From Lichina pygmaea (Eukaryota; Ascomycota; Lichinomycetes; Lichinales; Lichinaceae), in contig OY730170.1 in assembly GCA_963422465.1 (NCBI GenBank), positions 5,395,171 through 5,459,170 on the forward strand: DNA of 64,000 nucleotides, given 5' to 3'. Shown here piece by piece: positions 7,830 to 64,000 of this stretch (positions are counted from its first letter, which is position 1; each line of letters begins with the position of its first letter). A program made the position numbers and the translations under genes. The notes beneath the pieces are model-generated. The model made no database searches. It worked only from the letters and a program-made list of their open reading frames with translations, and was not told where the DNA came from.

Positions 7830-8820
7830 CCGCCAGGTAAGTCTCAGCCTTTAGCTTTTGACCTCCTGTTGTAGCTAATAGGGCAGTCTTCGGCATATAG
7901 CCTATCGACTCCTTTTCGCAGTTCCAGAGCCCCGAAGGCGCTCCACAGACAGCTCGGTGAGTCCTTGGCCAGTAGCCTTGTGACCTCCTTCTGCAGCCCA
8001 GCTACCAGCTGACTGCTTTCTAGGCAATCTCCAGCAGCGAGCTGTTGATCCCTCTCTCCACGGCTGGGTCCTCGAAGGTGCCACACAGCCGACTGCCAGC
8101 AGGAGTCTTTGGCCTCTGGCCTACCGACCCCCTTGTTGCAGATCAGTAGCTAACTGATTGCTTTCTAGGTGATCTCCAGCAGCAAGCTGTCGATCCCTCT
8201 CTCCGCGGCTGGGGCCTTGAAGGCACCACACAGCCGGCTGCCAGCAGGAGAGTCTTCAGCCTCTGGCCTCCCGACCCCCCTGTTGCAGATCAGTAGCTAA
8301 CTGACTGCTTTCTAGGCAATCTCCAGCAGTGAGCTGTTGATCCCTCTCTCCGTGGATGGGGCCTCGAAGGCGCCACGCAACCGGTGGCCAGCAGGAGAGT
8401 CTTCGGCCTCTGGCCTCCTGACCCCCCTGTTGCAGATCAGTCGCTAGCTGATCTTATAGGCAGTCTCCGGCTTGCAGCTGTCAACTCCTCCCTCTGTGAC
8501 TGGGGCTCCAAGAGCACCGCACAGTCAGTCTTTGGCAGGTGAGCTTTCAGCCTCTGGCCTAGCGACCCCCTCCCTGCAGATCAGCTACTAACTGATCTGT
8601 TAGGCAATCTTCAGCTTGCAGCTGTTGACTCCTCTCTCAGCGCGACTGTGTCCCGGAGGCACACAGCCAGCTCTGCGGTAAGTCCTTGGCCTTTGGCCTA
8701 GCGACCCCCTGATGCAGATCAGTGGTTAACTGACTGCTTTCTTAGGTGATCTCCAGCTTGCAGCTGTCAATCCCTCTTGTGCGACTGGGGCCTTGGAGGC
8801 ACACAACAGCTGACTTCCCA
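7830..8820. repeat. Tandem array, unit about 146 bp, roughly 7 copies
   Basis: The marker GCTTTCTAGG...ATCTCCAGCAG recurs at about 8014, 8160 and 8307 (spacing 146-147). Diverged copies lie near 7870, 8450, 8595 and 8735. Each unit carries GATCCCTCTCTCC, then GGGGCC plus a GAAGGC-type motif, CACACAGCC, AGTCTT, and GGCCTCTGGCCT followed by GACCCCC. Copies differ mostly by transitions. No reading frame runs through the array. Confidence 0.85.
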
Positions 8821-9399
8821 CAGTCAATCAATAGCCTTAGCCTATAGCTAACTTATAGCTAGTACCTGGCACAGGCATTCACCCTCTGTGCTTGGACCTG
8901 TGGCTAGGGTGAGAGCTAGTCTCACCCTCACCCCCCCCCCCCCTCTGCACCCACCTCCTGGTGGGTGGAGAGTGTACTCCCTTTCTCCAACTACTAGCCC
9001 TGCCAGGCCCTCCTTCAGAGTAGCTTGCTAGACTCTGCTAGAGACTTCTCTGGCTAAGAGGTAGTCTCTAGTCTCGCCCTGCTTGCTATTTCCAAATAGT
9101 AGTTGTGGTTGCTGTGGAACTCTGCCAGCAACTTGGTAGCAATAGGGTCGCAGCCCCACTGGTGTTTGCACGGGCTCTTTTAGAGCTTGCTACCCCAAGA
9201 TTCTGTACGTTCTGCAACCTTGCTAGTAAGGTAGTTCAATCCAGCTTAGCACAACCTTGTAGGTCTGCTAGCTAGCTTGAAGCCTCTCTGTAGACTCATC
9301 GCCATGTAGGCCGACTCTGCAGCATGGCACCTAGGCCCTGCAGGTCACTATGCGCTGCATCACACTATAGTTCTGGAAGTCCGCCTGCTTTGCAGCACA

Positions 9400-11200
9400 G
9401 CTTCTGCACATCACCCACACATCAGTGGTGTGCACTCAGGCTGCGCCCTCCTTCTAGGAGACGCTCAAGCCTATGAGCTCACCTGCCTTGCCCCCACAGA
9501 GTGCAAAAGCAGCTCCTTTGACATCTGCGTACCCACGCACCCACAGTGCGCAGTCAGGCTGGGGCTTCTCAAAGTCAACTGTGCTCTAGGAGTTCAACCA
9601 CCTCACCCCCGCCGGGTGTGAAGTGGCTCCTTGACATCTGTGTACCCACACACCCACAGTGCACAGTCAGGCCGGAGCTTCTCAAATTCAACCACACCCT
9701 AGGAGTTCAACCACCTCACCCCCACCAGGCATGAAGTGGCTCCTTCAATGCACCTGCACACCTGCAGCACACAGTCAGGCCGGGGCTTCTCAAAGTCAAC
9801 CACACCCTAGGAGTTCAACCACCTCACCCCCACCAGGCATGAAGTGGCTCCTTCAATGCACCTGCACACCTGCAGCACACAATCAGGCTGGGGCTTCTCA
9901 AAGTCAACTGCACCCTAGGAGTTCACCCACCTCACCCCCACTGGGTGTGAAGCAGCTTCTTCAAGGTACCCACACACCCTGCAGCCACAGCATGTGGTCA
10001 GGCTGGAGCTTATTAGAGCCACCTAAGCTCTTGGAGTCTGCCACCTTTGCAGCATGGCTTCTGCACGTCACCCACACATCAGTGGTGTGAAATCAGACTG
10101 CGCCCTCCTTCTAGGAGGCGCTCTAGCCTAGGAGTTCACCCACCTCACCCCTGCAGGGTGCAAGCAGCTTCTTCAGAGTACCCACACACCTGCAGTGCAG
10201 CTTCTGCACATCACCCACACATCAGTGGCATGCAATCAGGCTGCGCCCTCCTTCTAGGAGGTGCTCTAGCCTAGGAGTTTGCCCACCCCACCCTGCAGGG
10301 CATGGAGCAGCTCCTTCACATCTGCGTACCCACGCGCCTGCAGCGTGCGGTTGGGCTGGGGCTTCTCAAAGTCAACCGTGCCCTAGGAGTTCAACCACCT
10401 TGCCCCCACCAGGCACAAAGCGGCTCCTTGACAGCGTACCCACGTGCCTGCAGCGCGCGGTCAGGCTGGGACTTCTCAAAGTCAACCACACTCTAGGAGT
10501 TCACCCACCTCACCACTGCCAGGTGTGAGGCAGCTCCTTCAAGGCACCTGTGCACCTGTGGCACACTGTCAGGCAGGGGACTCCTCAGTGTCACACAAGC
10601 TCTAGGGGCCTGTGTGCTTCACAGTGTGGTGTTGGGCAGAGGGCTCCTCAGTGCCACACAAGCCCTTGTCCACCTGCTTCACAGTGCAGCCTCTTGCACA
10701 GTGCCCACACAGCCACAGTGTGTGTTCAGACTAGGCCCTCCTGCTAGGAGGTGCCCTAGCCTGAGAGCCTGCCTGCCTCACCCCCGCAGGGTGTGAGAGC
10801 AGCTCCTTCAAGACACCAACACGCCTGTGGTGCACTGTCAGGCAGGGGGCTTCTCAGTGCCACACAAGCCCTAGGGGCCTGCCTGCTTCACAGCACAGCC
10901 CCTGCACAGTGCCCACACAGCCGCGGCATGTGTTCAGACTAGGCCCTCCTGCTAGAAGGCACCCTAGCCTAGGAGCCTGCCTGCCTCACCCCCACAGAGT
11001 GTGAGAGCAGCTCCATCAAGACTCTTGCACATCTGCGCACCCACACGGCACTGCTGGGCTGGGGCTCCTCAGAGCCACACAAGCTCTAGAGGCCTGACTG
11101 CTTCACAGCACGGTGTCAGGCAGAGGGCTCCTCAGTGCCACACAAGCTCTTGTCTGCCTGCTTTGCAGTGTGGCCCCTGCACAGTGCCCACACAGTGGTG
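9400..11200. repeat. Tandem array, unit about 110 bp, about 15 diverged copies
   Basis: GAAGTGGCTCCTT recurs at about 9620, 9732 and 9841 (109-112 bp apart). Each unit continues with CACCCACAGTGC-like sequence, CAGTCAGGC..GGGGCTTCTCA, CCTAGGAGTTCA and CCACCTCACCCC. Variant units extend leftward to about 9400 and rightward to about 11200, where CCACACAAGC and GCAGCTCCTTCA are still recognisable. Short frames across it are repeats of one motif and not credible proteins. Confidence 0.85.
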
Positions 11201-11558: not shown

Positions 11559-12232
11559 TGTTACGACCCAGGAGGAACACAGTCTTTATATACTCACAGA
11601 AAGCAGCAGACAGGATACTGGACGGAAGTACCAGACAGCGTGACACGGGAACCAGTCACGTGACCGGCGAGACAAACCAGGGGGTGCTCGCCGCAGCATG
11701 CATATGCGTGAGCAGAGTGAGCAGAGCTCACCCAGCTCGCCGCAGCGTGCATGAACAGTGAGCAAAGTGAGCAGAGCTCACCCAGCTCGCTGCAGCGTGC
11801 ATGAACAAGTGAGCAAAGTGAGCAGAGCTCACCCAGCTCGCCGCAGCGTGCATGAACAAGTGAGCAAAGTGAGCAGAGCTCACCCAGCTCGCCGCAGCGT
11901 GCATGAAGAGTGAGCAAAGTGAGCAGAGCTCACCGATCTCACCGAGTGAGCAAAGTGAGCAGAGCTCACTGTGCTCACGAACTGAGCACTATATAGTCCG
12001 GCGATAGTTCCCTTATGGAACAATCATCTTCAACTCATGTTGTGATCCAGACAACTAGATCTACTTCAATACAATCCTTTTGTACGAAGCCATTGATCAG
12101 GTGTCACCACCACCACGTTCCACCAAACCCCTTCACGCTCCTTGACACTCCTCTCCTGCGAGAACCAACCTGCCTTCCACCTCTCGCCCTAATCCTATAC
12201 TCAGTTAGGACAGTACGGTACGGACCGCAACA
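11559..12232 (+). repeat. 5' LTR of chromovirus (674 bp) with internal tandem repeats
   Basis: Starts TGTTACGACCC and ends GGACCGCAACA. The middle (about 11690-11960) holds about five copies of a ~51-bp unit containing GTGAGCAAAGTGAGCAGAGC and CAGCTCGCCGCAGCGTGCAT. The last ~230 bp (from GATAGTTCCCTTATGGAAC) match the 3' LTR closely, but the first ~430 bp do not. Confidence 0.9.
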
Positions 12233-12250
12233 CTTTGAAGACTCTCAAGG

Positions 12251-13750
12251 ATGAGTACCTCAGGAGCAACCAACCCCAACTTCCCAGATGGAAAGATTAG
12301 CGTCGCCAAGCCAGACCTGTTCTACGGCGAAAGAAACAAGGTCAACGACTGGCTCATGCAACTCCAAGTCTACTTTCAATTCCAACCAGAGACAAAGCTG
12401 CCTAAGGAAAAGTGGCCCCTCTTTGCAACCACTTACATGAGAGGTAATGCTTATCGATGGATCAAGCTCTACGTCAACAAACATCTCTCAGGAAACAGAG
12501 ACCACTACAGCACGACAGAATGGATGACGAAATAGACACGATTCAAGGACAAGATCAAAAGGATCCTTGGACTATCTAACAAAGACAAAGTGGCTATATG
12601 AATGATCCAGCACATCAAACAACAACGCTCAGCCGCAGAGTACACCACGCAGTTCAAACAATATTCAGTACTGACTGACTGGGACGACGACGCCCTGATG
12701 GTCATGTACTGACGTGGACTCAAGGAAAACATGAAGGATGAGATCACCTTCGACAGACGAGCAGTCGACACACTGGATGAACTCATCGCACAAGCAATCA
12801 ACATCGACGACAAATTATTCGAGCGAGCGATGGAGAAACACCACGACAGAGGATACAGCCGCCCTGCATGGCATGTGAGCAACCACTACAAGCCGCCTAA
12901 CAAGGCACCGCCACATGACCCATATGGCTATGCACCCATGGAACTGGATGCAGTCCACCACAAGGGAAGGTTCACGAAGGGAAGGAACAACAAGAAGGGG
13001 AAAGCACTGAAGTGCTATGCCTGTGGCAAGCTAGGCCACATGGTGAGAGACTGTTGTTCAAAGAACAAGGTGCACTGACAGCAACTAAATACGCTCGACG
13101 GAGACTGGAATGTCATCAAGCCAGAGGACCCACCAGGAGAGGCTCAGCTATCCCTCAAACAATAGGACAACTACGATCAGATATTGGAAGCAGCCCACCA
13201 ACTGGCAACATCAGGAGGCAAGGACCTACCAGAACAGACAGGTCAGGACAAGGGACAGGAGCTCTTAACCACCTCTGATGGGGACCGAGACAAACCCACA
13301 TCTATCAAAGAAGAAATACCACAAGGAAGCTATGCTTACAGCATAGACCCACGAAACCTACGGCACGGTGAACTACAGTGGAGGTTTTGCACAAAGCACT
13401 ACTGCACCTACCACGAACAACTACGAAGGTACGGAGGACATTCACTCTACTGCGCCACCTGCCACAAGCATTGGGTCAATTGCAAGAAGGATGTGTGTGA
13501 GATCCATCTCTGGGACAAACGCCAACACACCGCATTCCCCGGGCACACACATGATTGGCACGAACACCTCATGTTCCTACAGCAAGGCAACAACCATAAC
13601 TGCTACATCAACAATTGGCAGTACTGCCTCAAGCCTGGATGTGACAAGCATCAGCAAGACAAATTCATGAACAGATTCCTCAGAACTGATGGGAATGGCT
13701 GGACCTATTGCCCAGTCAGTGGAAAAACACTTCGATCAGGAAAAGACTGA
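12251..13750 (+). pseudogene. gag: gag of chromovirus (capsid, zinc knuckle, Cys/His-rich tail)
   Basis: Structural polyprotein in the frame of the ATG at 12251. The retrotransposon-gag region has the PDLFYGERNKVNDWLMQLQ-type start. A CCHC knuckle CYACGKLGHMVRDC follows at about 13013-13054. The same frame then runs through a Cys/His-rich region (13388-13711) with three C-x4-C-x2-H units: CTKHYCTYH, CKKDVCEIH and CLKPGCDKH. Stops in the frame include TAG at 12533, TGA at 13076 and TAG near 13163, so no full-length protein can be made. The frame ends at 13750, overlapping the pro-pol frame by about 40 nt. Confidence 0.85.
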
Positions 13751-16700
13751 ACTCCCTTGTCAAGGGGCGACATCGGGAGCTCAACAACATGACCCCTAGC
13801 AACACAAAGCACCTGCGATTGCCTGTGTCACTACACACCAACACGCCAGTACAGACATACGCACTTGTTGACTCTGGAGCCAGTGGAAACTACATTTCGA
13901 GACAACTTTACAACACCCTCAGCACTGGAAGGAGACGCAAGCAGCAGCCCTATCAGCTCGCGATGGCAAATAGACAGACAGAGCTAGTCTGCCATAAGAC
14001 ACAGCCAATGGAAATAGTTACCGGACACCATGCTGAAAGGATCCACCTTGATATTGTCGAGTTGGCCACTCAGGATATCTATTTGGGGATGCCTTGGCTA
14101 AAGAAGCACAACCCAGTTGTTAACTGGAGGACAGGAGTACTCACGTTTAGGAACTGCACTAACAACACAGCTCGGACCTGTTACCAGCCGTAGAAGGCGT
14201 GGACAGATGAGGGAAGGAGTCCTCAGTGGAACCTCACCGACAGAAAGGATGACTCTCAAGAGAAGAGGTCTGCCTTGACAGGCACACCCCGGAACCAGGT
14301 GGCCAAACAGTCAGAGATGAAGAGAGAGGAAGTTGTTAACTCTCTGGAGATCCCTGAAGAGTACTGACCTGGGTATGATAACCTCTTTCAGGAAGAGACA
14401 ACAACAGCAGTGTTGCCTAAGCACCAACCTTGGGATCATGAGATCAAGTTGCAACCAGGGACAGAGCCAGGATTTGGACCAATTTACCAGTTATCAGAGA
14501 AAGAGCTCTAAGTACTTCGCGAGTACCTGGAGGAAAACCTGAAAAAGGGTTTCATTCGAGAATCTCAATTGCCAGCAGGATACCCGATACTATTTGCACC
14601 AAAGAAAGACAGAAGTCTTCGACTTTGTGTGGATTACAGGAAACTCAACAACATTACCATCAAGAACTGATATCCGTTGCCAAATGCGAACGAATTGCGA
14701 GACAGGATCAGCCAAGCTACAATCTTCACCAAGCTGGACTTGAAAGGAGTATACAACCTGATACGCATGAAAGAAGGAGAAGAATGGAAGACAGCCTTCA
14801 GAACCCGATACGGACACTACAAGTATCTGGTTATGCTATTCGGACTCACGAACACACCAGCAACATGTCAAGCCTTGATCAACAATATTATCAGAGCACA
14901 CCTGGATCAAACAGCTATCACCTACTTGGACAACATTCTTGTCTACTCAAACACACAACAGGAACATACCAAACATGTGAAGGATGTTCTACAATACTTA
15001 CAAGAGGTAGGGCTCAAGCTCAACCTGAAGAAATACAAGTTCAACAAACTAGAAGTTGAATTCCTCAGATACATCATAGAGATTGAAGAGATCAAGATTG
15101 ACTCTGAGAAAATCAAAGCAATTCAGCAATAGCCAACACTAACATCAGTCAAGGAAGTACAAGTCTTCCTAGGATTTGCCAACTTCAACTGACAGTTTAT
15201 TAAGAACTACTCACAGATGGCAACACCACTGACAGAACTCATGAAGAAGAATATGGAGTACTGGTGGACAGAGAGATAACAAAAAGTATTCTAACAGCTC
15301 AAGGATGCTTACACCAAGGAACCAGTTCTCCTCAACTTCAAGACAGGCCAGCCAACACAAATCAAAACAGACGCTTCAGACTAAGTGGTGGGAGCATGTC
15401 TATGCCAACAGGCAGATAGCAAGTGGCACCCAGTTGCTTACTACTCACATAAAATGTCACAAGTGGAACAAAACTATGATATCCACAACAAAGAACTACT
15501 GGCAGTTATCAACACACTTGAACATTGGAGAGTGTATACAGAAAGTAGTTCTGAACTCACTATTCTCACAGACCACAAGAATCTGATAATGTTCACAACA
15601 ACAAAGAAGCTGAACAGATGACAAGTCAGATAGGCTGAACTTCTAGGGCAACACAAGTTCAAGATCTTGTACACCCCCAGACAAGACAATAGGAGAGCAG
15701 ACACACTAAGCTGACAAAAAGACCACATGGAAGATGATGAACACCAAGGAACAATCTTACAGCAGGACCAGCAAGGAAACCTGGTGCCTCAACCACAGAT
15801 CAACAAGCTCACAGCAGAAGACACTGAAGAACTAATAAGGAACTACCACGATAATCCAGTACATAGTCACCCAGAAATCACCAAAACCACAGACTTTATC
15901 CAACAGGCAGAGAACAATGTCATCAACCTCTGACAACATGTTACAAGCTACATCAGCAAGTGTCTACTATGCCAGAAAAACAAACATGGAAGATATAAGC
16001 TATACAGAGAGAGATACCCAAACATAATACCAAGAGGCTCTTGGGAAGACATGTTAATAGACTTCATCACAAAGCTACCCAAGTCCAAAGACCCAGTCAC
16101 AGGAATCACCTACAACTCAATTATGGTGATTGTGGACAGATTCACAAAATACCTAATAGTGGTACTATTCAAGGAAACCCACACAGTAGAGCAGTTGGGA
16201 CACCTCCTACTGGACAGATTGGTCAGGGACTACAGAGTTCCAATCACAGTCATTACTGACAGAGACAAACTCTTCACATCTAACTACTGGAAAATAATCA
16301 GTGCAGCCATGGGAACAAAACCCAAAATGTCTACAGCCTATCACCCACAAACTGACAGCCAGACAGAGCAAGCAAACCAAGTCCTGGAGACTTATTTACA
16401 GCATTACATCAACCAGACCCACAGCAATTAGGTACAATTACTACCAGTGGCACAGCTGGCAATCAACCAGCACAGATCAGACTTAACAAAGGAATCACTA
16501 TTCTTTGCTAATTTTAGACAACACGCAAACATCAGAATGCCAAGCAGAGCTTCACCAAACATGGAGAAAGCACTCCAACATGACAAGCTTCTACAACAAA
16601 CACACACAATGATAAGGTATTACCTTCAAGAGACCTCAGAAAAGATGCAACACCAAATAGACAAAAAATTGAAAATGGTACCTCAGCTGAAGAAGGGGGA

Positions 16701-17067
16701 TAAAGTCTACCTCCTCACAAAAAATTGGAAAGTCAAGAAACTAAGAACAAAGAAACTGGACTATGTCAAGGTCAGACTATTTTCAGTTGAAGAAAGAACC
16801 AGACCAGTCAATGTCAGACTGCGACTACTGAGAGATGCTCGGGTACACCCAAACTTTCACATCTCAATGATTGAATTAGCTGACCAGAGTACACCCTTGC
16901 AGGAAACATTTCATTACTAACCAGAGGAAGAACAGGAATTTAAGGTTGAACAGATCTTGAAGAGAAAAGGTCAGCGATACCTTGTCAAGTGGAAAAACTA
17001 CCCAGACTTGGAAAATACCTGGGAACTACTCAGGAACTTCGCGAACTGCCAGCTCCTCCTGCAGTAG
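13708..17067 (+). pseudogene. pol: pro-pol of chromovirus (PR-RT-RH-IN-chromodomain)
   Basis: One reading frame (the -1 frame relative to gag) carries all enzymes. The aspartic protease has ALVDSGASGNYIS near 13860. Reverse transcriptase (about 14550-15130) has its active site as YLDNILVYS at 14923, where active enzymes have YLDD, so a catalytic Asp is lost. RNase H lies at about 15370-15621. Integrase (about 15790-16700) has the zinc-binding part ending CLLCQKNKHG and core residues in DFITKLPKSKD and VITDRDKLF. A C-terminal chromodomain has [15 protein letters not shown] (about 16921-17060). The frame is interrupted by many TGA/TAG codons; every segment stays in the same frame, so damage is by point mutation. 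Confidence 0.88.
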
Positions 17068-17407
17068 TTCTGGCAGAAGCAGGACTGAACAGCTCAGCCT
17101 GCAGTGCGGACATGTCAATGACTATCACTGACAAGTCTTCACCATCCACCTCCATTTTAGCAACAAGGCACTGGAGCTTCTTCTTTGCTTGACCCTCAGC
17201 ACCCTCAAGAACCTTTCACTTTCAGGACACACAAGTCTGCAGCTCGGCAAGCTGCTCAACAAGAGTATCCCACTTGGCCTCATCAACAGCCAAATCCTCA
17301 CGAAGGCTATCTTGGGTCATGTTCAGCGACTCCTAAGAAAGTGACACACAGGACTTCCCACAACAAGTGTATTCAGCACACTTCAACTTATTGTTGTTGT
17401 CAGATAT
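17030..17407 (-). pseudogene. Antisense ORF in the 3' part of the chromovirus (copy 1)
   Basis: Read against the element, a 126-codon frame runs from ATA (in place of ATG) at 17407 to TGA at 17030. It matches the antisense frame of the telomeric copy (62150-62518). It carries a Cys-rich start (KLKCAEYTCCGKSC) and a Leu/Glu/Lys-rich, coiled-coil-like second half (DTLVEQLAELQ, GQAKKKLQCLV). It is broken by TAG at a former Trp codon and by two TGA codons shared with the other copy. No function is recognised. Confidence 0.45.
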
Positions 17408-17558
17408 TTGGAAGCAGAGCTTGTGGTTCAAAACACAGAAGTCACACAGAGCAAGTGACACAAAGTTATGATCACAGATCTGGGCTGCCAGTTGTTTTCA
17501 GTAAGCAGAGGCATGTGATTTTGCAGACATACTCAAGAATTCATCAGGATGATGAATA

Positions 17559-17574
17559 AAGAAGAGGAGGGTAG
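17559..17574 (+). promoter_or_regulatory. Polypurine tract before 3' LTR
   Basis: AAAGAAGAGGAGGG followed by TAG lies directly before the LTR TG at 17575. This is the expected plus-strand primer site. The other copy has AGAGGAGGGTAG at the same place. Confidence 0.75.
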
Positions 17575-18168
17575 TGTTACAACCCCTGGGATAGGAGCCA
17601 CTTATTTATAGGCAATCAGGCCGCGGGCCAGGTAAGAGGATACTATGGAAGTCAAGTGACCAACCAACAAGGGGTCACGTGACTGTCAAGACATGGGTGG
17701 CTTGACGCAGCATGCATGAAGTATCAAGACAATCTTACCAGTCTTGATGCAGGATGCAGGAAGCATCAAGACAGTCTTACCAGTCTTGACGCAGTGTGCA
17801 TGAAGTATCGAGACAATCTCACCAGTCTTGACGCAGGGTGTATAATATGGTGGGACTGTCAAGACAATCTCACCTGTCTTGACGTCAAGACTGTCAAGAT
17901 AATCTCAATTGTCTCGACAGGCCAGCACTATATAGTCCGGTGATAGTTCCCTTATGGAACGATCGTCTTCAACTCATGTTGTGATCCAGACAACTAGATC
18001 TACTTCAATACAATCTTGTACGAAGCCACTGATCAGGTGTCATCACCACCACGTTCTACTAAACCCCTTCATGCTCCTTGACACTTCTCTCCTGCGAGAA
18101 CCAACCTGCCTTCCACCTCTCGCTCTAATCCTATACTCGGATAGGACAGTACGGTACAGACTGCAACA
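17575..18168 (+). repeat. 3' LTR of chromovirus (594 bp), different U3 from the 5' LTR
   Basis: Starts TGTTACAACCC and ends GACTGCAACA. Its middle repeat (about 17690-17900, unit about 45 bp) is built on ATCAAGACAATCTTACCAG and GTCTTGACGCAG, unrelated to the 51-bp unit of the 5' LTR. It does match the telomeric copy's LTR (61331-61982). From GATAGTTCCCTTATGGAAC to the end it matches the 5' LTR. Confidence 0.9.
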
Positions 18169-42252: not shown

Positions 42253-43198
42253 CGCGAGATGGATCGAACGATAGCCATGCTGAAGGCGAGGGTGAGAAGT
42301 GATGGAAGTTGATATACTGAGACTTCTGCCTACCCCACATTCTCCAGCAGATTGTCATAGTGGTGGGGTGAATGGGCCTGTAGAAATCACGCAGTACAAT
42401 TATAACATGGTGGAATCGCCAGCTCGCCCGAGTACGAGCGCACGGATATAGGGATCTCGTCTTTCCACAGGCTGTGATTGATGTTCATTGGGCATGTTGT
42501 GTTTGATGTGGCGCGGACCCCGTCGGAGCGCTTCAACCGAGCTCGTCTACTTACGCACATCCGTACGGAGTACACGACAGTCAGACACGGCGTTGTTCAA
42601 GACTGCGCCCCACGCAGTAAAAGCACAGCTGCCACGTGCTGCTTTTGAGAAGCTGGTTGGAAGGATTGCTTTTCAACTCCAACATCCGCTAGTAATCTGT
42701 TGGGAGAAGGTGGCCTCACGTACCATCGCAACCCCTACCGGTGTCACATTCTGGTAGACCGCCGCTGTCGAAGAACAATTCACGAAGTCGGCCCCGAGAA
42801 GCCTGACAGCGTACGGTGCTGGATCGGCAACTACAAGTCGTCACCATTTGCCACAATCAACCGTTTCGCGGCGAGAGTGACGGGGATGTGGTGGGCTACG
42901 TGCAAAAGTTTCCCATTGATGTCGTGTACTCGCTGGTCCAGTGTGATTTCGGACCTCTGCGGCCTGGGTCCGTGAGGACGATTAGCGGGCAATACGGGGT
43001 AGGGCTACTGCAGACTCCAGATCTAAGTTCTTGGACTCGACTTGCTCTACTGAGACAAATCAAGCTTGGAAGCAAGCTTTGTGCTCCGTACTGTAGGATG
43101 AAGGCTCGGAGTGGTGGAAAAACAGCAGAGGAAAGTCGACGAGGTAAAACTTGCTCTTGTGCCGACCTTGTCATGATGCCCGATCTGATCCAATCCTA
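42253..43198. other. Intergenic, no gene supported
   Basis: One 142-codon + frame (42816-43244) runs into the inverted-repeat element and has no recognisable motif. Otherwise nothing seen. Confidence 0.4.
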
Positions 43199-43384
43199 CC
43201 GTACCCGATCACATGACGGTCGATATCAGATAGCGAGCAGTTGAGGGGCCCCCTTGATGAAATTTTGTATAAGTCCACTATCCTTGGTTGGAATCATCTC
43301 AAATTTTTATATTGGGTAGAGAATCATATAGAGAAGAGATATCGAGCAATAGAGCTCTAGTATACAAAGCATGACTGTTTTCTC
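43199..43384 (+). repeat. Left arm of the inverted-repeat element
   Basis: Includes TTGATGAAATTTTGTATAAG, CCACTATCCTTGGTTGGA and TATCGAGCAATAGAGCTCTA, all found inverted in the right arm. Confidence 0.85.
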
Positions 43385-43757
43385 AGAACTCAACTTTATT
43401 ACTTAGTCCTTGCGACCTCCTTGTCTTCCCACCGGTCATCTTCATCATTGACATCAGCAGAAGACCCCAGGAAGTAAAGCTAGTGGAGCGTGTTGGTGCC
43501 CTTAGCATCCAGGAATAGTCTATGACTCCCCAGACTGTCTAGGATCTTGCAGAGCGTATTGTTGGGAAGTCTTGTTTCAAGTGCAGAACACAGCACCTTG
43601 TAGAAGCAGGCAGAGAAGGAGGAAAAAGATCAGAAGGCTGTAACAACTGCAAGAAAGACTCATTCACCAGTCAAAACAGTCTTCTTCTGATGTTGATGAT
43701 GTAGATGACAGGTGGGAAGATTAGGAGGCCCCAGAACTAATTAACATCATTGAGTCC

Positions 43758-43944
43758 TGAGAAAGCAATCACGCTTTGTATACTAGAGCTCTATTGCTCG
43801 ATATCTCTTCTCTATATGATTCTCCACCCGATATAAAAATTTGAGAGAACTCCAACCAAGGATAGTGGACTTATACAAAATTTCATCAAGGGGGCCTCTT
43901 AACTGCTCGTTATCTGATATCGACCGTCATGTGATCGGGTACGG
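43758..43944 (-). repeat. Right arm of the inverted-repeat element
   Basis: Reverse complement of the left arm. Sample differences between arms: ATAGCGAGC versus ATAACGAGC, TATTGGGTAG versus TATCGGGTGG and GCATGACTG versus GCGTGATTG; these are transitions, consistent with C-to-T decay. Confidence 0.85.
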
Positions 43945-44546
43945 TACATGTTGACATTCTTTGTGGACAGTCTCGAAGTCGGACCAGCAGCTTCAGAATC
44001 ACAAGTGACGTGATGCTATTGACCAGAGGGGTGGCCTCTCCGGACCGCAGTTGAAGGAGGGACCATCAAATAGACAACTCCTCGATCAACTTACTAGGTG
44101 TACGGTACCTATAGTATGCGACATCTCCACTGTTCGGAAGGTTTGTTTTGAGGAATAGATGTGCAAGTCCATCCTTGAGTCTCTGTCACTGCACTGAGTC
44201 TTGGTTTACCAGATCTGCAGAGGACGTCAACGAGGATTTTTTGATTTTGATTTGATTCTTACACTGATTTGGCTGTTAAGCCATGCAGAACTTCTTGAAG
44301 GATTTTTGTCTCTGGTAGACTTGACTCGGGGACCTCACGCATTTACCGTACACCCCGTGGTTTGTAGTGTACGTACTGTGGGAAAACCCCAAACCCCGTA
44401 GGGGAAATAGGAAAACCACAGTAATGAGGGTTTTGTGGATCTTGACGGATATTGGGTGAGCTATTTCTTGGGGGTTTTCATACATCTTGCGAGGAGTACA
44501 TCTTAGACAAGTTCTATGAATCTCGGGGGTTTTTGTGGCAGAATGT

Positions 44547-59649: not shown

Positions 59650-61162
59650 ATGAAAGACTCAAAGCTCACACTTCTCCAGTATAATGTGCAAAAAAGCTAA
59701 TCAGTCCAAGAGCTACTTCTAACAATCTCAGCTCTTCAAGAGGTGGACATTATTCTACTTCAAGAACTCTGGAAAAACTCTCACCTAGAGACAAGCACCT
59801 CTACTGTTTTCTTTTCTTTTCTTTCTTTTTACTGTTCAGAGATTGGTAGAACACTTTTTCTTATTAACAAAAACCTGAAACTTTTTTCTCTTCATCCTAC
59901 TTTCTGGAGTAAAGACTTTATTTCTCTTGAAATCTACTTGGAAAACTCTTCTACTTCTCTTTGGGTGCATAATCTTTACTTTACCCCATCAAGTCAAGAA
60001 AACTATACAGAGGTATCAGAAGCTCTTCTCTGTTTACTTCAAAATACTTTACAAGTACAAGGACAATATATTCTTCTCACAGATTCAAACCTCCACTACC
60101 CAGACTAGTCAAAGAAAAGAAGACTGTACTCTGATACTGTAAACAAGTTCCAAGGTCTAATGAAAGATTTAAATCTGGATTTAGCTATTACACTTTTTAC
60201 TCCCACCAGAGCAAGATCTCTTTCAGAAAAACCATGTTCTGCAATTGATCTGTCTTTTATTTCTTCTTCTCTTTCTAACTCCCTGATTTTCTCTAAAGTA
60301 GCTCTCCAGTTCTTTCATGGGTCTGACTACAGACCTATACTAACTAGCCTAGACCTAGATTCTCCAAGGAAAACCTGGAAGCCAGAAAAGAACTGGAAGA
60401 CACTAGACTCAAGCCTTGCAAGAGTAGAGTGTGAGAAGCTACAGCTACTTTCCCACTTTCAAGATAAAGATAAAGTGAATAAGTACTTGGAGTATCTGGA
60501 CAACTTTCTCCAAGAAGTGGCAAGCAAATATACACAGCTCCAGAAGCAATCTGGTCACTCAGTTCCCTGGTGGAACCAAGACATCTAAAACAAGGTTAGA
60601 GAGAAAAGAAAAGTAAGAAGACAAGTTCTCAGAGAACAGGCATTCCAAGAAGACCTTGAGCAAGCAACTAAGAATAAGAAAAAAACAGTCAGAGAGGGAA
60701 AGCAGACTACCTTCAGACAACAAGTCTATAAGCTAGCCAGTTCTTCAAAATTCTGGAAGCTTGCAAAGTGGGGAAAAACAAAAGCCAACAGGACTCCTGA
60801 TCTTTCTCTAGTCCCAGATTTGGAAACTCAAGAAGGACTAGCTAAAACCTTTGAGGAGAAGATAAAAGTATTCTCAGCCTAGTTCTTCTCCAAAGCACAT
60901 ATTCCAGAACCAAGTACAGAGAGTTCCCAGAGTACTCCAGAGATCTAGCTCTCTCAGGAAGTTACTGCTGAAGAAGTGGAACAAATCCTAAACAAAAAGA
61001 AATCTTTCACACCAGGGGGAAAAGATAAGCTGCCAAATAGATTTCTGAAAGCTCTGGGTTCCAAGTTGTGCCAAGCTATAGCTGTTCTCACATCAACATA
61101 CTGGAGACTGGAATACTTTCCAGAGAGATTCAAGAATGTAAAAACAGTCTGTCTAAGAAAAC
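59650..61162 (+). pseudogene. LINE ORF2 (endonuclease and start of reverse transcriptase)
   Basis: APE-type endonuclease remains: VDIILLQELW, LWVHNLYFTPS, QYILLTDSNLHY, CSAIDLSF and the final motif GSDYRPILTSL (normally SDHRP). A connector follows, then the beginning of reverse transcriptase (VEQILNKKKSFTPGGKDKLP, RFKNVKTVCLRKPG). Truncated there. The RT active-site YxDD is absent. Confidence 0.7.
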
Positions 61163-61330
61163 CTGGTGGCCTGCAACAACTCGAACCTCCATGTGGTGCA
61201 GGCTGGGAACCTTGGGGCAGTTGATAGTGGGCAGCTTCCCAGACTGCTTGTAGTTGCTGCACCAAGAGCTAATCAAGTCACCAGTCAAGCTGCTGGTGTT
61301 GCGGAGTGACAGGCCACCGGAGGTGTCACG
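61163..61330 (+). mobile_element. Fragment of LINE 5' region
   Basis: 168 bp matching the reverse complement of about 20165-20325: CCTGCAACAACTCGAACCTC versus CCTGCAACGACTCGAACCTC, and CCACCGGAGGTGTC shared. It is wedged between LINE copy B and the chromovirus LTR, marking a recombination or insertion junction. Confidence 0.8.
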
Positions 61331-61982
61331 TGTTGCGGTCTGTACCGTACCATCCTATCCGAGTATAGGATTAGGGTGAGAGGTGGAAGGCGGGTTGGTT
61401 CTTGCAGGAGAGGAGTGTCAAGAAGTGCAAAGGGGTTTGGTGGAACGTGGTGGTGGTGACACCTGATCAATGGCTTCGTACAAAAGGATTGTATTGAAGT
61501 AGATCTAGTTGTCTGGATCACAACATAAGTTGAAGATGATTGTTCCATAAGGGAACTATCACCGGACTATATAGTGCTGGCCTGTCAAGACAATCAAGAT
61601 TGTCTTGACAGTCTTGACGTCAAGACAGGTGAGATTGTCTTGACAGTCCCACCATGTTATGCACCCTGCGTCAAGACAGGTGAGATTGTCTCAACAGTCC
61701 CACTATGTTATGCACCCTGTGTCAAGACTGGTGAGATTGTCTTGATGCTTCATGCATCCTATGTTGAGACTGGTGAGATTGTCTTGATGCTTCATGCATC
61801 CTGCGTCAAGACTGGTGAGATTGTCTCAATACTTCATGCATGCTGTGTCGAGACTCCTGTGTATGTCTCGACAGTCACGTGACCCCTTGTTGGTTGGTCA
61901 CTTGACTTCCATAGTGTCCTCTTGCCTGGCCTGCGGCCTGATTGCCTATAAATAAGTGGCTCCTATCCCCTGGGTTGTAACA
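61331..61982 (-). repeat. LTR of the telomeric chromovirus copy (652 bp)
   Basis: Read on the minus strand: TGTTACAACCCAGGGGATAG...CAACA. The internal tandem repeats built on TCAAGACAATCTCACC and CTTGACGCAGG match the 17575-18168 LTR and not the 11559-12232 one. Confidence 0.9.
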
Positions 61983-62149
61983 CTACCCTCCTCTACTTCA
62001 TTCATTGTCCTGATGAATTCTTGAGTATGTCTGCAAAATCATGTGCCTCTGCTTACTGAAACCAACTGGCAGCCCAGATCTGTGATCATAACTTTGTGTC
62101 ACTTGCTCTGTGTGACTTCTGTGTTTTGAACCACAAGCCCTGCTTCTGA

Positions 62150-62518
62150 ATGTCTGACAACAACGATAAATTGAAGTGCGCTGAATGCACTCATTGTGGG
62201 AAGTCCTGTGTGTCACTTTCTTGGGAGTTGCTGAACATGACTCAGGATAACCTTCACAAGGATTTGGCTGTTGATGAGGCCAAGCGGGATGCTCTTGTTG
62301 AGCAGCTTGCCAAGCTGCAGGCTTGTGTGTCCTGAAAGTGAAAGGTTCTTGAAGGTGCTGAAGGTCAAGCAAAGAAGAAGCTCCAGTGCCTTGTTGCCAA
62401 AATAGAGGCAGATGGTGAAGACTTGTCAGTGACAGTCATTGACATGTCCACGCTGCAGGCTGAGCTGTTCGGTCCTACCTCTGCCGGAACTGCTGCAGGA
62501 GGAGCTGGCAGTTCGTGA
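62150..62518 (+). pseudogene. Antisense ORF in the 3' part of the chromovirus (copy 2)
   Basis: Opposite to pol, from ATG at 62150 to TGA at 62516-62518. The first 61 codons are open: SDNNDKLKCAECTHCGKSC gives a C-x2-C-x2-C-x3-C cluster, followed by DEAKRDALVEQLAKLQ. After two TGA codons (VS-stop-K-stop-K) the frame continues VLEGAEGQAKKKLQCLVAK, EADGEDLSVTVIDMSTLQAE and a Gly/Ala-rich end. The composition is protein-like, with a possible zinc cluster plus coiled coil. It overlaps the last codons of pol. Function unknown. Confidence 0.5.
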
Positions 62519-63831
62519 GGTTCCTGAGTGGTTCCCAGGTATTTTCTGAGTCTGGGTAGTTTTTCCACTTGACAAGGTATTGCTGACCTTTTCTCTTCAG
62601 GATCTGTTCAGCCTTGAATTCCTGTTCTTCCTCTGGTTGGTAATGAAATGTTTCCTGCAAGGGTGTGCTCTGGTCAGCTAATTCAATCATTGAGATGTGA
62701 AAGTTTAGGTGTACTCAAGTGTCTCTCGGTAGTCGCAGTCTGATGTTGACTGGTCTGGTTTTTTCTTCGACTGAAAATAGTCCAACCTTGACATAGTCCA
62801 GTTTCTTTGTTCTTGGTTTCTTTGTTTTCCAATTTCTTGTGAGAAGGTAGACTTTATCCCCCTTCTTTAGCTGAGGTGCCATTTTTGATTTCTTGTCTAT
62901 TTGACGTTGCATTCTTTCTGAGGTCTCTTGAAGGTAGTGCCTCATCATCTTGTGTGTTTGTCGTAGGAGCTTGTCATGTTGGAGTGCTTTCTCCGTGTTT
63001 GGTGAAGCTCTGCTTGGTATCCCGATGTTCACATGTTGTCCAAAATTGGCAAAAAATGGTGATTCCTTTGTTGAGTCTGATCTGTGCTGGTTGATTGCCA
63101 GCTGTGCCACCGGTAATAACTGTACCCAATTGCTGTGGGTCTGGTTGATGTAATACTGTAAGTAAGTCTCCAGGACTTGGTTTGCTCACTCTGTCTGGCC
63201 ATCAGTTTGTGGGTGATAGACTGTAGACATTTTGGGTTTTGTTCCCATGGCTGCACTGATTGTCTTCCAGTAGTTGGATGTGAAGAGTTTGTCTCTGTCT
63301 GTAATGATCATGATCAGAACTCCGTGGTCTCTGACCAATCTGTCCAGTAAGAGGTGTCCCAACTGTTCTGCTGTGTGGGTCTCCTTGAATAGTACTGCTA
63401 TTAGATATTTTGTGAATCTGTCCACTATCACCATAATCAAGTCGTAGGTGATTCCTGTGACTGGGTCTTTGGACTTGGGTAGCTTTGTGATGAAGTCCAT
63501 TGACATGTCTTCCCACAGGCCTCTTGGTATCGTGTTCAGATGTCCTTCTCCATATGGCTTATGTCTTCCATGTTTGTTTTTCTGGCATAGTAGACACTTG
63601 CTGATGTAGTTTGTGACATGTTGTCGGAGGTTAATGATATTGTTCCCTGCCCGTTGGATAAGGTCTGTGGTCTTGGAGATTCCTGGGTGACTATGTGCTG
63701 GATTATCGTGGTAGTTCCTTATTAGTTCTTCAGTGTCTTCTGCCGTGATCTTGTTGATCTGTGGTTGAGGCACCAGGTTTCCTTGCTGGTCCTACTGTAA
63801 GATTGTTCCTTGGCGTTCATCATCTTCCATG
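62475..63831 (-). pseudogene. pol: Integrase plus chromodomain, copy 2
   Basis: Same frame as copy 1. It has the zinc-binding part (HSHPGISKTTDLIQ...CLLCQKNKHG), core (DFITKLPKSKDPVTG, IITDRDKLF), linker (KKGDKVYLLTRNWK) and chromodomain ([17 protein letters not shown]) ending LLLQQFRQR. Stops include TGA at 63186-63188 and at least one more between 62690 and 62715. Segments remain in one frame. It is better preserved than copy 1 at several sites. Confidence 0.88.
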
Positions 63832-64000
63832 GTTAGGGTTAGGGTTAGGGTTAGGGTTAGGGTTAGGGTTAGGGTTAGGGTTAGGGTTAGGGTTAGGGTT
63901 AGGGTTAGGGTTAGGGTTAGGGTTAGGGTTAGGGTTAGGGTTAGGGTTAGGGTTAGGGTTAGGGTTAGGGTTAGGGTTAGGGTTAGGGTTAGGGTTAGGG
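63832..64000 (+). repeat. Telomere, (TTAGGG)n
   Basis: About 28 perfect TTAGGG units to the end of the window, in the orientation expected at a right chromosome end. They start immediately after CTTCCATG of the integrase gene, with no subtelomeric spacer. Confidence 0.98.

Follow-up and report, generated by a model that had tools for sequence, protein, structure and literature searches.

The window analysed here comprises 64 kb of the Lichina pygmaea genome and forms the right end of contig C2 (end C2R), its last letter being the final base of that contig (5459170). The genome consists of 32,469,017 bases in eight contigs, seven of which (5.82 to 3.23 Mb) are capped by telomere repeats at both ends. 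Contig C8 (47,955 bp) is the sole contig without telomere repeats, no repeat match being left once the 14 chromosome ends are counted, and is probably the mitochondrial genome. The terminal part of the window is occupied by a truncated retrotransposon and the telomere that abuts it, and the features on which the analysis turns are the following.

11985..18168, plus strand: copy 1, an interior chromovirus flanked by LTRs at 11985-12233 and 17924-18168, recognised by sequence comparison and used as the local reference for the part missing from copy 2
59867..61167, plus strand: LINE fragment with 94% identity to the last 1.3 kb of end C3R; the telomere there sits on the same element (endonuclease domain)
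61330..61578, minus strand: proximal LTR (3' LTR) of copy 2, about 249 bp; identity to the LTRs of copy 1 is 94% (5') and 90% (3')
61578..63831, minus strand: internal 3' part of a chromovirus (Ty3/Gypsy) copy, copy 2, cut on its 5' side by the telomere, recognised by sequence comparison
63210..63437 (about), minus strand: rve integrase core, 31.7 bits, just below the Pfam cut-off of 32.6; coordinates derived from the distance to the telomere
63570..63740 (about), minus strand: H2C2 integrase zinc-binding domain, 45.8 bits against a cut-off of 25.5, about 90 bp from the junction; coordinates derived
63792..63794, minus strand: in-frame stop codon, between the junction and the integrase domain, read from the sequence
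63831..64000, plus strand: telomere array closing the contig, 170 nt long and made of perfect TTAGGG in phase (GGTTAG...), from TRF and the sequence; the G at 63831 is common to array and element

Copy 2 carries the hallmarks of a chromovirus: LTRs, the H2C2 and rve domains in the C2R open frame (rve just under its cut-off), and a C-terminal chromodomain, the last scored in the same-family copy at end C4L (Chromo, 54.1 bits) and not in the C2R copy. In Ty3/Gypsy elements gag, protease, reverse transcriptase, and RNase H are encoded ahead of integrase; by this usual gene order, the C2R copy has lost all four and has kept the recognised integrase domains. The original prediction placed the telomere inside the integrase gene. 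The break does lie in pol, but the recognised integrase domains are intact and the junction falls approximately 90 bp upstream of them. The copy is nonetheless decayed, since it is interrupted by the in-frame stop at 63792-63794.

The two LTRs of copy 1 are identical at 231 of 249 aligned columns; the C2R copy retains one LTR. Copy 1 (15726-17694) and copy 2 (61863-63831) form an inverted pair of 1,969 nt that is 91% complementary. A base-by-base match between them had been proposed, and it is exact over the last stretch before the junction, but over approximately 2,160 bp copy 2 is only 90.7% identical to copy 1; over the same length it is 93.8-95.1% identical to nine other copies (one further locus, L024, having been excluded from this comparison by a 2-kb length filter). 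A genome search with positions 62501-63831 returned C2R itself and at least 39 further matches at 95-96%, distributed over C1-C7, with 40 of 627 candidates scored.

The prediction that the telomere starts at 63831 with no intervening sequence is borne out. The chromovirus fragment extends up to that base and is followed, with no filler, by perfect TTAGGG, which TRF reports as a single array from 63831 to 64000 (period 6, 28.3 copies, 100% matches, zero indels). Among the compared loci, 19 homologues reach the C2R junction, and in all 19 a G follows CATCTTCCAT and the next base is out of telomere phase. Because every one of them departs from phase at that base, the overlap between element and telomere, without filler, is a single base (G, 63831), and the GG earlier suggested as the priming microhomology is one base too long. 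Taken by itself, a one-base overlap proves nothing.

The same structure is found at every chromosome end. All 14 bear perfect TTAGGG arrays of 152-175 bp with no degenerate units, so that the regularity of the repeats remarked on at C2R, though real, is nothing special to it. In BLAST comparisons among the tips and with other loci, all 14 telomeres begin flush within dispersed repeats, the starting points all differing and belonging to several element families, and the last 150 bp at each end has homologues elsewhere that run on past the break, the best copy being approximately 86-99% alike. The tips were sampled as 10 kb from each of the 14 ends (C1L-C7L and C1R-C7R); junction-reaching homologues for C1L, C3R, C5R, and C6R come only from the 10-kb tips of other chromosomes, and those for C3L and C4R from loci recovered by genome search, which also covered C5L. 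Joins are clean and free of filler at 12 of the 14 junctions, the exceptions being C6L, where the last bases depend on the alignment, and C3L, where one base is a misfit. No junction is common to two ends, and the arrays are homogeneous from the first unit, with no donor subtelomere.

Seven ends fall within the chromovirus family (C2L, C4L, C6L, C7L, C1R, C2R, and C7R); at five of them the element meets the telomere with its 5' side and at two with its 3' side. Other ends are situated in or near LINE-like elements, as indicated by an endonuclease domain at C3R and by reverse transcriptase at C4R and C6R, and other Ty3/Gypsy-like elements are represented by an integrase zinc domain at C1L and a protease near C3L; element typing thus covers the ends other than C5L and C5R. 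A flush telomere on a transposon is thus the normal architecture of this genome and not a single accident, and C2R is not exceptional, because all 14 ends share its structure.

Repeats cover at least 0.89 of the last 10 kb at 11 of the 14 tips, and 0.59 at C2R, 0.31 at C2L, and 0.11 at C7R; these values are lower bounds, as cover was scored from the compared loci only. At C7R the telomere is separated from DNA unmatched among the compared loci by only about 1.1 kb of repeats, of which about 0.7 kb is chromovirus. With so short a stretch of repeats there, even a small element can carry the junction.

The overlap between element and telomere was scored at each junction as the number of bases common to both, giving 3, 3, 1, 3, 0, 1, and 1 nt for C1L to C7L and 1, 1, 1, 2, 3, 3, and 2 nt for C1R to C7R. 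Overlaps of 1-3 nt occur at 13 of 14 junctions, five of them being of 3 nt, and the sum is 25, against a chance expectation of 0.66 nt per junction and about 9 in total. With a null in which break point and phase were drawn at random within the terminal 3 kb of each real tip, the probability of a sum of 25 is 1.5 × 10^-4 in 20,000 simulated sets (1.3 × 10^-4 in 40,000), that of 13 of 14 junctions overlapping by 1 nt or more is 5 × 10^-5, and that of five of 14 overlapping by 3 nt is 3.5 × 10^-4. The 12-nt homologue continuations used for scoring were picked by hand; automatic choice of the homologue with the best identity gave the same values and the same sum.

The junctions are not all equally clear. 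C5L has zero overlap; at C3L one base fits neither element nor telomere cleanly; at C6L the overlap varies with the alignment. At C6R the 3-nt overlap comes from a single homologue, the remaining homologues aligning at least 2 bp short of the junction and not showing it, and at C5R one of three homologues gives an overlap of 0. Setting C3L and C6L to 0 lowers the sum to 23 (P = 5 × 10^-4), with 11 of 14 junctions overlapping (P = 0.009); setting C6R to 0 as well gives 20 (P = 0.004). Under the harshest scoring, with C5R also at 0, the sum is 17 (P = 0.024) and the nine overlapping junctions of 14 are no longer significant (P = 0.10). The excess is clear under ordinary scoring and weak under the harshest, and it is the mark that telomerase would be expected to leave when pairing its RNA template with a short 3' seed.

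No interstitial telomere tracts were found. The 17-mer TTAGGGTTAGGGTTAGG has 350 matches in the genome (177 + 173), all within the 14 terminal arrays and none elsewhere, and the 335 genome matches of (TTAGGG)4 are likewise all accounted for by these arrays. No (TTAGGG)2 or longer tract was found outside the arrays in the 14 10-kb tips. Since any perfect tract of at least 22 nt would contain TTAGGGTTAGGGTTAGG, the genome holds no interior array of that length or more that could be captured. A telomerase is predicted to be encoded, on the evidence of a telomerase RNA-binding domain (TERT) at C1:5666815-5667287, which lies in open frames without stops and scores 94.3 and 51.6 bits against a cut-off of 25.

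We consider that these ends probably arose as broken or eroded chromosome termini healed by telomerase from short seeds, which is the best explanation of the data. In this scheme, the right end of C2 would have broken, or worn back, into a subterminal chromovirus copy, with loss of the 5' part of the element and of everything distal to it; telomerase would then have added TTAGGG straight onto the exposed 3' end, aligned by the one-base seed (G), and the remaining 13 ends would have formed likewise at other places. The tips are mostly transposons, and terminal loss there would probably be cheap. We infer the agent (telomerase, not capture of a pre-made telomere), the distal loss, and the order of events from the form of the junctions. 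The original prediction of a broken chromosome healed by new telomere addition therefore stands as the best explanation, with its seeds supported by the 14 ends jointly, but not as a description of something peculiar to C2R. The repeat cover, high at most tips and low at C7R and C2L, is compatible both with breaks that favour transposons and with tips that simply consist of them.

An extension of this scheme, which we put forward as rather unlikely, would make the transposon blocks the working subtelomere: ends would recede and be recapped by telomerase repeatedly, every present end being a healed transposon stump, either because breaks or healing are drawn to the elements (for example through the elements' own nuclease activity) or because only ends that stop in a transposon survive selection. 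Programmed chromosome breakage at a fixed signal was also considered and rejected, as the 14 junctions, compared by eye, have no common position or motif beyond the telomere seed.

Among the alternatives to healing by telomerase, the one that survives best, though we judge it unlikely, is capture of a telomere: a TTAGGG array would have been copied from a different chromosome end and attached to the broken element through microhomology-mediated end joining or break-induced replication. Flush junctions overlapping by 1-3 nt are expected here too, microhomology-mediated joining to an existing telomere leaving the same scar, and strand invasion could be helped by the repeats close to the ends. 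Capture by recombination usually brings donor subtelomeric sequence along. The observed arrays, at all 14 ends, are bare TTAGGG set on different element positions, with no junction common to two ends, and an interior donor array was not found in the genome; a bare array captured from another chromosome end would nevertheless look alike.

We regard it as improbable that the junctions are assembly artefacts, produced by attachment or collapse of telomere repeats onto unfinished contig ends that stop in repeats. Repeats are where assemblers usually break off, and all 14 ends do stop in them. The overlap excess counts against an assembler having pasted arrays onto contig ends, however, as appending would not phase so many arrays with the bases of the elements (P about 10^-4, or 0.004-0.02 under harsher scoring); the arrays, moreover, vary in length, from 152 to 175 bp, and all seven chromosomes are capped at both ends.

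Endonuclease-deficient Penelope-like elements extend bare chromosome ends. Telomere-targeted retrotransposition, by insertion into telomere repeats in the manner of MoTeRs and FoTeRs or by such extension, has a fungal precedent in the FoTeRs as reported (PMC12857005) and would account for retroelements at or near the telomere wherever the element type of an end was recognised, but we reject it as barely credible here, and disfavour the retroelement tail joined to an existing telomere that the original prediction offered as its alternative, given the mixed orientation (5 versus 2 among the seven chromovirus ends), a truncation point that differs at every end, the absence of (TTAGGG)2 from the 10-kb tips outside the arrays and of TTAGGGTTAGGGTTAGG from the rest of the genome, and the other copies of the C2R segment on C1-C7 (at least 39), which are not restricted to ends.

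The mechanism and the general architecture are already known, and this genome illustrates them cleanly without representing a new kind. In Pyricularia (Magnaporthe) oryzae, TTAGGG likewise follows truncated elements or repeats directly, in most cases from a short seed and often at private junctions (PMC7367193; PMC8381367): of 24 telomeres formed de novo on rDNA, 19 are reported to have seeds of 1-4 nt, and of 23 truncated MoTeRs, 17 to have seeds of 1-7 nt (PMC7367193), and among 516 telomere-adjacent sequences 38 are given as private and 471 as lineage-specific (PMC8381367). The truncations described there arose in passaged cultures and involve telomere-targeted MoTeRs together with interstitial tracts, whereas the present telomeres sit on dispersed chromoviruses and LINEs, interstitial tracts were not found in the searches above, and all 14 ends are affected.

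The published description of Neurospora crassa (PMC2596135) records TTAGGG arrays that are similarly short, at about 200 bp, the lack of any repeat class common to all telomeres, and a Pogo relic abutting the VR telomere, but also AT-rich tips with the hallmarks of RIP; here, by contrast, the last 150 bp is about 86-99% alike to the best copy and the chromovirus copies are without the classic CpA-type RIP signature. Human neotelomeres, in the cases reported, also carry repeats directly on the break with 0-5 nt of microhomology, the breaks often falling in repeats (PMC3136441; PMC4427916). Terminal deletions of 22q had 1-5 nt of microhomology at 14 breakpoints (PMC3136441), and in another series 1-3 nt were present at five of six junctions, the authors judging microhomology not essential (PMC4427916). 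Those are single events in patients, whereas here every end of a genome is concerned. MoTeRs and FoTeRs resemble the present elements in being retroelements that adjoin fungal telomeres and, as described, differ in inserting at or in telomere repeats, with FoTeRs confined to ends (PMC12857005), neither of which holds here. Our literature search found no paper that could be tied to the ends of this genome, which is a weak negative.

The notable part is the universality of the structure within one genome, on elements of which other copies run past the break. The 14 base-resolved telomere junctions, with unbroken copies of the elements still present, offer naturally occurring material on how fungal telomerase may select its starting point. 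They also argue against taking a telomere flush on a transposon, without further evidence, as a mark of recent damage or misassembly, and suggest that the absence of a common subtelomere can be normal in such genomes.

The base directly before the telomere phase is C at nine of the 14 ends, against 4.0 expected (P = 0.006, a post hoc and exploratory value). A similar tendency toward a preceding C is seen in the seedless truncated MoTeRs reported from Pyricularia, of which five of six ended in C (PMC7367193).

Differences among the chromovirus copies are mostly transitions. The ratio of observed to expected CpG is 0.18-0.56 in these copies (copy 2, copy 1, C1R, and the interior loci L025-L031), compared with 1.01 in the gene region at 24-52 kb, and their RIP indices are 0.49-0.79 for TpA/ApT and 1.28-1.45 for (CpA+TpG)/(ApC+GpT). 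Judged by the thresholds that define classic RIP indices, these values are not of the classic type, and classic RIP was rejected as the source of the divergence. The CpG depletion and the transitions hint instead at cytosine methylation and deamination. Dating of the break from the divergence of the copies was likewise set aside, as divergence dates the element and not the break.

Other features of the window lie further from the telomere. An ENPP-like protein is 71% identical to a protein of Peltula (Lichinomycetes), with several other lichen-type ascomycetes about equally close, and 91% identical to an ENA protein. An inverted repeat of 214 nt (43197-43410 and 43733-43946; 92% complementary, spacing 322 nt), in surroundings that are unmatched among the compared loci, is possibly a small DNA transposon. 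Degenerate repeats with periods of approximately 108-147 nt, as arrays and dispersed copies, occupy 8009-11035, beside copy 1.
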